Below the pieces are notes generated by a model. That model saw only the letters and a program-made list of their open reading frames with translations, ran no database searches and was not told where the DNA came from. 64,000 nucleotides of DNA, from assembly GCF_030409335.1 (NCBI RefSeq), contig NZ_JAUFPN010000147.1, positions 1-64,000 of the forward strand, written 5' to 3'. Origin of the DNA: Paeniroseomonas aquatica (GTDB lineage: Bacteria; Pseudomonadota; Alphaproteobacteria; Acetobacterales; Acetobacteraceae). Shown one piece after another: positions 40,143 through 42,999 of this stretch; position 1 is the stretch's first letter, and each line of letters starts with the position of its first letter. Made by a program: the position numbers and the translations under genes.

Positions 40143-41105
40143 TTAGGCCCACAGCCTTTCGCTCTGCAGGCCGGTATAGAGGTCGCTGACGAACTCGCCG
40201 TAGCCGTTGAACAGCTTGGTCGGCACCCTTTCCCCGGTTCCGAGGATCCGCTCGCTCGCCTGGCTCCAGCGGGGATGCGGGACCTCAGGGTTGATGTTGC
40301 CCCAGAAGCCGTATTCCTGTGCTTGGATCGCCTCCCAGAAGGTCTTCGGCCGTTCGGCAACGAGGCTGATCCTGACCAGCGACTTGCCGGCCTTGAAGCC
40401 GTATTTCCAAGGCTGGTGGAAGCGGATCGGCGCGCCATTCTGCGGCAGCAACGGCTTGCCATAGGCACCAAGCACCACGAAGGAAAGGTCGTTGCCTGCC
40501 TCCGCCACGGTGCAACCCTCGATATAAGGCCAAGGGTACCAGCTCTGCCGGAGCCCCGGCATGACCGCCGGCATTGCCGCGGTCTCGAAACGGACGTATT
40601 TCGCACCGGACTTCACCCCGACCTGGGCGAGCAGCGCCGACAGCGGGAACCCGGTCCAGGGCACCACCATCGACCATGCCTCGACGCAGCGCAGGCGATA
40701 GGCGCGCTCCTCCATCGGCATGCTGCGGATCAGTTCGTCCACCGAGAACTCTCGGGGGGTATCGACCAGCCCATCCACCTTCACCGTCCAGGGCCGCAGC
40801 GGCAGCTTCTGGGCAGCCCGGTAGATCCCCTTGTCGGTGCCGAACTCGTAGAAGTTGTTGTAGGTGGTCGCCTCCCGCTCGGCGGTGAGGCCACGCTCGG
40901 GTTGGTACCGTGGGTTGCGAGCCGGGGTCGGAAACTCCGGCGTGGCGGCCGTCTGGGCCTGTCCGTGGCTGGGCAAAGCAAGACCCGACAGCGCGATGCC
41001 GGCTGCACCGCCCGCTTGCAGCAAGGCACGGCGGTTGAACACCAGCGCCTCTGGGGTGACCTCGCGGTCCGGGATTTCCCAGCCGCGGCGAATACGGATC
41101 AGCAT
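40143..41105 (-). CDS. msrP: protein-methionine-sulfoxide reductase, molybdenum catalytic subunit
   Basis: A 320-aa molybdoenzyme (formerly YedY) that repairs oxidised methionines in periplasmic proteins. A Tat signal (NRRALLQAGGAAGIALSGLAL) exports the folded protein. Moco is bound through the Cys in YRLRCVEAWSMVVPW; NNFYEFGTDKG and RFHQPWKYGFKAGKSLVRI are also family marks. GAAGGAGG supports the start. The usual membrane haem partner MsrQ is not next to it; it may be elsewhere or absent. Confidence 0.95.
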   Translation of the reverse strand: MLIRIRRGWEIPDREVTPEALVFNRRALLQAGGAAGIALSGLALPSHGQAQTAATPEFPTPARNPRYQPERGLTAEREATTYNNFYEFGTDKGIYRAAQKLPLRPWTVKVDGLVDTPREFSVDELIRSMPMEERAYRLRCVEAWSMVVPWTGFPLSALLAQVGVKSGAKYVRFETAAMPAVMPGLRQSWYPWPYIEGCTVAEAGNDLSFVVLGAYGKPLLPQNGAPIRFHQPWKYGFKAGKSLVRISLVAERPKTFWEAIQAQEYGFWGNINPEVPHPRWSQASERILGTGERVPTKLFNGYGEFVSDLYTGLQSERLWA

Positions 41106-41248: not shown

Positions 41249-41276
41249 TTGTATTCTTTATCCTTAACACTATCCT
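41249..41276 (+). promoter_or_regulatory. candidate sigma-70-type promoter of the CtrA-like gene
   Basis: TTGTAT (41249-41254), 16-bp spacer and TATCCT (41271-41276) lie in a short AT-rich island 55-80 bp before the ATG at 41331. No other gene in this direction could use it. No perfect CtrA half-site pair (TTAA-N7-TTAA) was found. Confidence 0.45.
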
Positions 41277-41330
41277 GTGAGGACAGGTGGTTCCCCTCCT
41301 CGTGATCATAGCCCATCGGCGGAGCAGCGC

Positions 41331-42110
41331 ATGCATATCCTCCTCGCCTCCCTCTCGACCAGCACCACGACGCTCGTGGCCGGGCTTGCCGATCTCGGCA
41401 TCCGTTGCGACGAAATCGATCAGCTGGACGATCTGGCTTCGGTCCTTGCGCTTAGCGGCCCCTACGACGCGCTGCTGCTCCGGCTCGATGGTCCGACGGG
41501 GGAGGCGCAGGCCGCAGTCTGCGATCTGCGGCGCCGTGGCCTTGCCGTGCCGGTTGCGATCCTTTGCGGTCGCAGCCCGCTGCCGGCGGAGGAAGAGGCC
41601 CTGCTGCACGCCGGCGCCGACGACGTGCTGCACAATCCCATCCACCTGCGCGTCCTGCTGGCCCGGCTGCAGGCCTTGGCCCGGCGCGCCCGCGGTCATT
41701 CCTGTGCGCGGCTGCTCTGCGGCAATGTCGTGCTCGATCAGGCCCAGCATGCCGCCTCGGTCGACGGCCGCCGCGTCCCCCTGACCGCCCGGGAATTCGA
41801 TTTCCTCGAGACCCTGATGCTGCACAAGGGCGTCCTTCTCACGAAGGAGCGCTTCATGACCAACCTCTACGCCGACGGGACTGCGCCGGATTCCAAGATC
41901 GTCGACGTCTTCGTCTGCAAGCTGCGGCGCAAGCTGGCCGAATGCGGCGCGGCCGAGATGATCCGCACGGTCTGGGGCCGGGGCTATGTCGCCTTCGAGC
42001 CGAGCCCGGCGACCATCGAATCCGCCCGGCGCGACCGACGGCCCGAAGCGGCCATCGACCCGGTGCCGCGCGGCTGGACCCGGCGCAGCGAGGTGCTGGC
42101 CACCGCCTGA
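41331..42110 (+). CDS. CtrA-like response regulator with degenerate receiver
   Basis: A 259-aa OmpR-type regulator. The C-terminal winged helix is very close to CtrA: LTAREFDFLETLMLHKGVLLTKERF, then KIVDVFVCKLRRKL and TVWGRGYV. The N-terminal receiver keeps the fold (YDALLLRLDG; AGADDVLHNPI) but loses every phosphotransfer residue: the acidic pocket after strand 1 reads LLASLSTS, the phospho-acceptor Asp is Arg51, and the conserved Lys is Asn102. It therefore cannot be switched by phosphorylation in the normal way. A Pro/Arg-rich tail extends about 30 residues past the DNA-binding domain. GGAG lies before the start at 41331. No kinase is nearby; a lytic transglycosylase follows after 79 bp. 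Confidence 0.85.
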   Translation: MHILLASLSTSTTTLVAGLADLGIRCDEIDQLDDLASVLALSGPYDALLLRLDGPTGEAQAAVCDLRRRGLAVPVAILCGRSPLPAEEEALLHAGADDVLHNPIHLRVLLARLQALARRARGHSCARLLCGNVVLDQAQHAASVDGRRVPLTAREFDFLETLMLHKGVLLTKERFMTNLYADGTAPDSKIVDVFVCKLRRKLAECGAAEMIRTVWGRGYVAFEPSPATIESARRDRRPEAAIDPVPRGWTRRSEVLATA

Positions 42111-42189: not shown

Positions 42190-42999
42190 ATGATGCCCCG
42201 CTGTCCCACCCCGCGGCCACTGCCGCCCCGTGCCGGCGCCCGTCTTCCCATCCGGGCCGTGTTCCTTGCCGCAGGCCTCGCCTCGCCAGCCTTGGCCGAT
42301 CCACCGCCAGGCGCCGACGCCGGGCGCCTGTGCCAGGCCGCACTGGCGACGGCGGAGCGCGAGGCCGGCCTGCCGCCCCGTCTCCTCGCTGCCATCGCCC
42401 GGGTCGAGTCCGGCCGGCGGGACCCTGTCAGCGGCGCCGTGCAGCCCTGGCCCTGGACCATCAATGCCGAGGGTCGCGGCAGCTTCTACCCGGACAAGCC
42501 GGCAGCAATTGCCGCGGTGCGGGCGCTGCAGGCCCAGGGGGTTCGCTCGATCGACATCGGCTGCCTGCAGGTGAACCTACGGCATCACCCACAGGCCTTC
42601 GCCAGCCTGGAAGAGGCCTTCGATCCATTGGCCAATGCCCGCTACGCCGCCCGCTTCCTCAATGAGTTGCAGCTCGGCCGCAACGACTGGATGGGCGCGG
42701 CCGGCGCCTATCACTCCCAGACGCCCGCATACGCCTCCCCCTACCGTGCCCGGGTCGCCGCCGCCTGGGCGCTGGAGCGGGATTTGCCGGCAACGCCGCC
42801 AATCGCCAGCCTGCCTGGCCCGGCCCGGCCCAGCCTGGCCGCGCCGAGCCAGGCAGGGGGCGGCTTCATGCTCTCGAACGGGGCCGAACGCGTCACCGTG
42901 CTGGCCAATGCCAACCCCGGCAGCGGCCGTGGCCTGGAGGCCTATCGGGCCATGCCGATCCCGCTCGCCGGCCGTGTCCTGCCGCCGCGGCGGCTGTAG
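42190..42999 (+). CDS. lytic transglycosylase (SLT domain), exported
   Basis: A 269-aa wall-active enzyme expected to cleave peptidoglycan glycan strands. After a signal peptide (RLPIRAVFLAAGLASPALA) comes the lysozyme-like domain with the catalytic Glu in LLAAIARVESGRRDP, then SIDIGCLQVNLRHHPQAF and GAAGAYHSQTPAYASPYRARV, the family's GxxQ and AYNxG-like motifs in variant form. Tandem ATGs occur at 42190 and 42193. It follows the CtrA-like regulator and may be its target, since CtrA-type regulators often control envelope remodelling; that is inference. Confidence 0.87.
   Translation: MMPRCPTPRPLPPRAGARLPIRAVFLAAGLASPALADPPPGADAGRLCQAALATAEREAGLPPRLLAAIARVESGRRDPVSGAVQPWPWTINAEGRGSFYPDKPAAIAAVRALQAQGVRSIDIGCLQVNLRHHPQAFASLEEAFDPLANARYAARFLNELQLGRNDWMGAAGAYHSQTPAYASPYRARVAAAWALERDLPATPPIASLPGPARPSLAAPSQAGGGFMLSNGAERVTVLANANPGSGRGLEAYRAMPIPLAGRVLPPRRL

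Follow-up and report, generated by a model that had tools for sequence, protein, structure and literature searches.

What could a regulator do that carries a CtrA-like DNA-binding domain but whose receiver has lost the phospho-accepting residue? This question is raised by one gene, here called REG, in a stretch of 64,000 nucleotides from Paeniroseomonas aquatica (Acetobacteraceae; contig NZ_JAUFPN010000147.1), the whole of which is referred to as the window. CtrA is the textbook example of a master regulator controlled by phosphorylation. A preliminary description of the locus had proposed a CtrA paralogue with a dead receiver that could bind CtrA sites without phosphorylation, competing with or replacing CtrA in cell-cycle or envelope control. 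The features of the locus are listed in Table 1.

Table 1. Positions of REG, its parts and its neighbours in the window.
Feature	Position	Strand	Remark
REG, CtrA-derived (putative) OmpR/PhoB-type regulator with pseudo-receiver	41331..42110	+	259 aa, stop included in coordinates
Pseudo-receiver, REG residues 1-121	41331..41693	+	predicted (beta-alpha)5 fold, block pLDDT 87-97
Winged-helix DNA-binding domain, REG residues 122-224	41694..42002	+	CtrA-like recognition helix and wing
Basic C-terminal tail of REG	42003..42107	+	low model confidence at the end
Arg51 codon, column of the CtrA phospho-accepting Asp51	41481..41483	+	alignment to own CtrA
Asn102 codon, column of the conserved CtrA Lys101	41634..41636	+	alignment to own CtrA
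Glu88 codon; Lys/Arg in CtrA (PhoB Lys91, dimer interface)	41592..41594	+	
Val108 codon; Glu in CtrA (PhoB Glu111, dimer interface)	41652..41654	+	
Cys130 codon, start of the DNA-binding domain	41718..41720	+	Cys in 27/27 REG, 0/27 CtrA-labelled rows
Promoter-like element TTGTAT-N16-TATCCT / CACTATCCTGTGA upstream of REG	41249..41280	+	conserved in the Belnapia group
Lytic transglycosylase, SLT domain	42190..42999	+	start codon inferred
msrP, divergent neighbour of REG	40143..41105	-	present in 17/17 Belnapia-group loci

Homology begins at the ATG at 41,331, which was taken as the start of REG; a longer alternative would start with GTG at 41,277. A Pfam search found Trans_reg_C in the protein (69.9 bits; cut-off 26.2), while Response_reg, at 15.1 bits, remained below its cut-off of 30.2. 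Modeling with AlphaFold2, based on 18 family members, gave a receiver fold followed by a winged helix with a mean pLDDT of 85.7, which is the architecture of OmpR/PhoB-type regulators. The best structural match to the model by E-value was 1kgs, and the highest TMq values among the 50 matches listed (0.67–0.69) belonged to DNA-bound PmrA (4s04) and CosR (8uvx/8uvk), the latter of which we take to be a phosphorylation-independent atypical regulator. The motif RGWxRR in the C-terminal tail was kept in nine aligned sequences.

In order to outline the family, 147 genomes, the own genome included, were searched with the window protein. Orthologues with 82–84% identity were found in six of the seven same-genus genomes (the one without a match, G007, is 75% complete) and orthologues with 64% and 61% identity in two other genera; the matches listed after these did not exceed 46% and were CtrA wherever examined. 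A second scan with two sequence patterns, one of them CGNV, yielded 34 loci, of which 26 are REG orthologues (L074–L099) and eight, with 25–40% identity and from other phyla, were dropped. A profile search of 397 Acetobacteraceae genomes revealed 30 with a match of at least 248.8 bits, and these REG calls rest on the gap to the next best score of 223.8 bits. In the searches made, REG was found only in Roseomonas-like Acetobacteraceae, namely Belnapia, Paracraurococcus, Dankookia, Roseicella, Siccirubricoccus, Pseudoroseomonas, Roseomonas and an uncultured Craurococcus, and its frame is open in 27 loci. No paper on this family was among the literature matches listed, most subscription journals lying outside the coverage of that search. 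In two genomes (L172, G433:C197; L176, G437:C58) REG stands divergent to an even more diverged paralogue (L172b and L176b).

The best NCBIfam model for REG was CtrA (NF045991), for which it scored 149.9 bits where 350 is the cut-off. Two phylogenetic trees of the DNA-binding domain were built from short alignments, in which 99 and 102 columns were kept and the root was not fixed. In the tree of REG and CtrA, REG (31 rows) was separated from 41 CtrA rows by a branch with support 100/100, and the CtrA rows from other families, 18 in number, formed a clade of their own (99/98), apart from both REG and the CtrA of Acetobacteraceae. In the tree with OmpR outgroups and the Rem protein of Sinorhizobium, REG (37 rows) was supported with 99/94 and CtrA as one group with 36/63; the bootstrap of this tree was unsettled (0.980), and the long branches of the OmpR rows and of REG meet in it. 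REG was nearest to CtrA in both trees, which bears out the proposed paralogy, and a duplication of CtrA within Acetobacteraceae would fit this topology. REG was rejected as a CtrA orthologue: its score is below the curated cut-off, the phosphotransfer residues are lost, it lies outside the CtrA clade and the genome contains a separate true CtrA.

Alignment with the CtrA of the same genome showed that the acidic residues E7/D8 are replaced by Ser/Leu, Asp51 by Arg, Ser79 by Cys and Lys101 by Asn, at a receiver identity of 33%; all three changes named in the preliminary description (loss of Asp51 to Arg, of the acidic pocket and of the Lys, which is now Asn) were thus found again. None of the 26 further orthologues keeps the pocket Glu or the Lys, and 21 of them have lost Asp51; because the losses recur in this way they are not due to chance. 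Counted over the window and L074–L099 together (ten extra REG copies from other genomes are given apart), the first acidic residue and the Lys are kept in 0/27 REG, the second is Asp in 11/27 and the complete acidic pair occurs in none; Asp51 is kept in 5/27 and replaced by Arg in 13/27. The corresponding residues are retained in 27 (first acidic), 25 (second acidic), 25 (Asp51) and 26 (Lys) of 27 CtrA rows, which were labelled by hand and include the odd rows L035 and L056. As judged from these alignments, the REG receiver is without the residues for normal phosphotransfer while keeping the predicted receiver fold, the structural mark of a pseudo-receiver.

Within the genus of the window (seven REG and six CtrA sequences; the CtrA of G006 was left out, its frame being broken) the median dN/dS of REG was 0.152 for the receiver and 0.066 for the DNA-binding domain (21 pairs), whereas CtrA showed 0.069 and 0.068 (15 pairs). 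In five cross-genus pairs the receiver identity was 49–54% for REG versus 83–90% for CtrA. These values indicate purifying selection on REG, with a receiver that is relaxed or changing, yet under constraint. Two of the CtrA-labelled rows deserve separate mention. L056 (G023:C9:23040-23705), from an Acetobacteraceae genome without an FlhA match, is a second CtrA paralogue whose receiver is dead, the Asp51 column being Gly and the Lys column Ala; it joins the CtrA clade of other families at 94/85, and its receiver loss is apparently independent of that of REG. In L035 (G015:C1:642923-643600), a CtrA from a 2.9 Mb genome also without an FlhA match, the Asp51 column holds Glu and the second acidic column Ser.

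The DNA-binding half had been described as nearly CtrA. This holds for the recognition helix and wing, in which 24 of 36 residues are identical to the own CtrA, but not for the whole domain, which is only 48% identical. The same comparison with eight other OmpR-type regulators, six of the own genome and two of relatives, gave 12–16 identical residues of 32–36. The dimer interface is given here in PhoB numbering, in which Lys91 pairs with Glu111. In these terms D100, R115, R121 and R122 are kept in 27/27 REG and D101 in 26/27 (REG residues D97, D98, R112, R118 and R119). The K91 column is Glu in 26/27 REG and the E111 column Val, Leu or Ile in 26/27, whereas all 26 CtrA rows compared (L056 left out) keep Lys/Arg and Glu there. 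We infer that REG would form homodimers and mix less readily with CtrA.

A true CtrA coexists with REG in the own genome (G000:C95:172621-173289; 385.9 bits against the cut-off of 350). When 16 genomes were searched with the CtrA model, 13 were over the cut-off, including eight of the nine REG genomes among them; the ninth, G006, had a match of 280.3 bits in a broken frame. With CtrA matches in all nine, the idea that REG replaces CtrA is not supported. The own CtrA gene is located between fliI and chemotaxis (che) genes, with a match to a ChpT-type phosphotransferase domain nearby (C95:179189-179554; 33.8 bits against 22.9), and ctrA was also found with fliI in L130, L133, L168, L182, L184 and L187. 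The Azospirillum brasilense regulator L130, beside FliI, and L055 of G065 were considered as flagellar REG and rejected, since they score higher with the CtrA model. In a 1.9 Mb genome (L136, G039:C12:335000-350000) the CtrA match is split over two frames, and ctrA may be broken there. The CtrA-type site TTAA-N7-TTAA occurs at two places in the 6.5 Mb own genome, where its reversed control occurs at 11, and both places of the site are on contigs other than those of REG, flhA and ctrA.

Gene neighbourhoods were then compared. In the Belnapia group, to which the window belongs (17 loci, L074–L090), the lytic transglycosylase stands next to REG in 15 loci, and the divergent msrP (identified with 401.6 bits against a cut-off of 207) remains in place in L085 and L086, which lack the transglycosylase. 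Neither in the flanks of these loci (at most 10 kb, several shorter) nor in the window was a flagellar gene detected with the query set used, which is insensitive in Belnapia: it found part of the genes on flagellar contigs, and small or diverged ones could be missed. The neighbours that were identified give no expectation of a flagellar gene either, and the FlhA gene of the own genome is on another contig, C80. Upstream of REG (18 regions, window included; counted by eye) TTGTA is present in 16 and CACTAT in 14. The promoter-like element, with a single match in the genome at up to three mismatches, therefore resembles a core promoter more than a motif shared across a regulon. GTTAC, found by eye in 16 of the 18 regions, and GTTACG, which precedes REG by about 50 bases in L092, L096 and L098, were discarded as a regulon motif, no tie to flagellar promoters having been found; a motif common to REG and flagellar promoters was looked for and not found. 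In L080 and L081, repeated GCGTTACG units lie upstream of REG and could possibly be regulator sites.

The Roseomonas group presents another arrangement. Among its nine loci (L091–L099), motB and motA follow REG in five, and flbT adjoins it in two more (L093 and L097). Four loci (L091, L092, L096 and L098) have further flagellar genes around REG, among flgK, a flagellin-like gene, flgE, flgD, fliF and fliG; in L099 motB and motA are the only flagellar genes detected, and L094 and L095 have no flagellar gene near REG. The same transglycosylase is divergent to REG at a distance of 476–732 bases in L091, L092 and L098. In seven further distinct genomes of this group, motA, motB and the transglycosylase are beside REG in three (G256, G349 and G449), and no flagellar gene was found in the stretch read in four (G224, G345, G433 and G437; G433 and G345 being short contigs). 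In total, 6 of 16 distinct genomes had no flagellar gene near REG in the stretches read, some of them short. No msrP was found beside REG in this group. In G256 and G449 REG is present twice within a single flagellar neighbourhood, the copies lying about 9 kb from each other (L169, G256:C66; L170, G449:C10), and one of the two copies in each genome is without Cys130. Of the 30 REG genomes, 29 (all but G345) had an FlhA match, versus 318 of the 397 overall; the hypergeometric value of 0.0089 for this mild co-occurrence ignores kinship.

With motB and motA beside REG in five of the nine loci and flbT in two more, the suggested role in cell-cycle control is not supported. The suggested role in envelope control found no support in the flagellar neighbours of the Roseomonas group either, and the msrP neighbour would allow it in the group of the window. 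The gene next to REG is, as had been stated, a lytic transglycosylase, its SLT domain being recognized by Pfam with 30.3 bits. It is linked to REG in 18 of the 26 loci, in two arrangements, and its relatives in Azospirillum lipoferum and Paroceanicella are flanked by fliQ and flhA (in Azospirillum a transporter and an IS separate the transglycosylase from flhA). According to the cited passages of PMC12363192, SltF of Phaeobacter adjoins flhA. This neighbour is not proof of a flagellar role, because the own genome contains three other relatives with 47–54% identity, a weak SLT match (62 bits) is located on its flagellar contig about 16 kb from flhA, and distant relatives are found on conjugative plasmids.

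A further character of REG is its cysteines. Cys130, in the first strand of the modelled DNA-binding domain, occurs in 7/10 extra REG copies in addition to the 27/27 of Table 1, a count biased by the use of CGNV in finding the loci; Cys26 is present in 22/27. By pattern, Cys130 was found in 28 of the 30 best profile matches; the 30th has Leu, and the 29th, L160, seems to duplicate the record of L088, where the sequence is CGNV. Cys130 corresponds to the RitR-type feature of a cysteine in or near the linker between receiver and effector. The passages of PMC5965902 and PMC12632262 cited here describe a linker cysteine in RitR and a cysteine in the alpha1-beta2 loop of Hp1021/Cj1608. In section 18 of PMC5965902, 28% of receiver-effector linkers are given as containing a cysteine, with a CG consensus, and as linker cysteines are common, a redox reading was weighed low.

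The reading we prefer is that REG is a CtrA-derived regulator dedicated to flagellar genes that works independently of phosphorylation, and on the sequence evidence this appears, on balance, probable. CtrA would have been duplicated and the copy would have become a flagellar regulator without phosphorylation. Its pseudo-receiver would serve as a dimerization module through alpha4-beta5-alpha5, where the Asp and Arg residues are kept, and the change of the Lys–Glu pair to Glu–Val would disfavour mixed REG–CtrA dimers. Whenever present, the REG dimer would bind at flagellar promoters, to sites of the CtrA type or derived from them; control would therefore be exerted on its synthesis, on its turnover or through a binding partner, in the manner of Rem and MirA. 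REG and the transglycosylase may have left a flagellar cluster together in the Belnapia group, or the move may have been the reverse. The flagellar part of this reading is based on the position of REG within flagellar clusters in some of the sister genera, on its link with the transglycosylase and on the co-occurrence with FlhA; against it stand the 17 Belnapia-group loci without a detected flagellar gene, whose tightest neighbour is msrP, the six Roseomonas-group genomes in which none was seen in the stretches read, and the fruitless search for a motif common to REG and flagellar promoters. The other occurrences of transglycosylase relatives lowered the weight of this reading slightly. Against independence of phosphorylation stands the Asp51 that persists in five of the 27 REG.

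REG could instead tune the CtrA regulon, the cell cycle included, by occupying CtrA sites or by forming inactive heterodimers. The conserved recognition helix and wing, the CtrA matches in every REG genome of the 16-genome search and the location of the CtrA gene itself with fliI and che genes, which would allow the regulons to overlap, agree with such a role; we nevertheless regard it as unlikely, considering that the changed interface should weaken mixed dimers, that TTAA-N7-TTAA is so rare in the genome and that the gene neighbourhoods of REG point elsewhere. Rather unlikely, too, is that REG regulates the divergent msrP of the Belnapia group in a redox or envelope role, with Cys130 and Cys26 as a switch like that of RitR or Hp1021/Cj1608. 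The constant msrP neighbour, retained even without the transglycosylase, and the contrast in Cys130 between REG and CtrA, together with the frequent Cys26, argue for it, but the frequency of linker cysteines with a CG consensus (PMC5965902, cited passage), the equal conservation of Cys130 in the Roseomonas group without a neighbouring msrP, the three of ten extra copies without this residue and the bias of the main count argue against it.

The shared transglycosylase neighbour was the first lead to the rhizobial flagellar master regulators Rem/FtcR, of which REG might be a diverged member. In Sinorhizobium meliloti an OmpR-type regulator, identified from its position as Rem, has a lytic transglycosylase immediately ahead of it and flgE and flgK behind it, and like the window protein and most REG it has no Asp in the phospho-acceptor column; REG of the Roseomonas group is, moreover, beside mot genes. 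However, the DNA-binding domains of Rem and REG are 21% identical, only 9 of 36 residues agree in the recognition helix and wing, and Rem retains the acidic pair and the Lys and occupies a separate, very long branch. Clustering with a known atypical family, which had been regarded as an outcome against the CtrA-paralogue proposal, was tested on Sinorhizobium Rem, and REG does not cluster with it; we consider membership very improbable and the candidate was rejected. It is hardly credible that REG is a decaying paralogue without function: the lost phosphotransfer residues and the low cross-genus identity of the receiver would suit decay, but the dN/dS medians of both domains, the frame open in 27 loci, the conserved promoter element and the fold predicted to be intact do not.

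A more far-reaching form of the preferred flagellar reading would be that CtrA has split in two in one branch of Acetobacteraceae, the original remaining on the phosphorelay and a pseudo-receiver copy, insulated by the Lys–Glu to Glu–Val change of its dimer interface and bearing a conserved cysteine, running the flagellar genes by abundance or redox state; we hold this only as a tentative possibility. In the cited passages of PMC8116508, motility is proposed as the first task of CtrA. If the split did occur, this ancestral task would have passed to a paralogue blind to phosphate, and the flagellar clusters of Azospirillum and Komagataeibacter, with their decayed CtrA-like regulators, would be repeats of the same step. 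REG would also open up flagellar control in Acetobacteraceae, and it offers a natural test of how a phospho-switch can be removed with DNA recognition kept and how cross-talk between paralogues is avoided.

Among known regulators, REG is most like CtrA (NF045991), with which it shares the order of domains, the recognition helix and wing and the nearest position in both trees; it differs from CtrA in lacking the acidic pair, Asp51 and Lys101 in the window protein, in the changed Lys–Glu interface and in its other locus. Two plasmid-borne regulators with truncated or degenerate receivers were also observed in flagellar clusters, namely L128:30442-31167 of Azospirillum lipoferum 4B AZO_p5 and L129:35156-35860 of Komagataeibacter saccharivorans p92689. 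They resemble REG in the CtrA-like motif and in the flagellar cluster, but their DNA-binding domains are 33% and 38% identical, respectively, they are on long branches outside the REG clade, and the Azospirillum regulator keeps the Lys.

Rem shares with REG the OmpR type, the flagellar cluster and the adjoining lytic transglycosylase, and it has Phe in the phospho-acceptor column; it differs in the residues and domain identity given above, and a location in a flagellar cluster, as in Rem/FtcR, was found for part of the Roseomonas-group REG loci and not for the group of the window. In the cited passages of PMC12632262, Rem is counted as an atypical regulator and is inhibited by MirA, and REG would at most work like it by analogy. 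FtcR of Brucella and ActR of Azorhizobium, described as flagellar regulators in the passages of PMC9456535 and PMC8639532, were likened to REG by description only. HP1043, ChxR, GlnR and RitR are named as pseudo-receiver (atypical) OmpR-family regulators in the cited part of PMC12632262. Atypical OmpR-family regulators resemble REG in keeping the receiver fold and losing phosphotransfer residues, and CosR, bound to DNA, is one of the best structural matches listed. HP1043, ChxR, GlnR, RitR and CosR belong to other lineages and regulons, and descent from CtrA is not reported for them in the passages cited. Pseudo-receiver regulators are a known class, and REG can be regarded as a probable variant of it that descended from CtrA.
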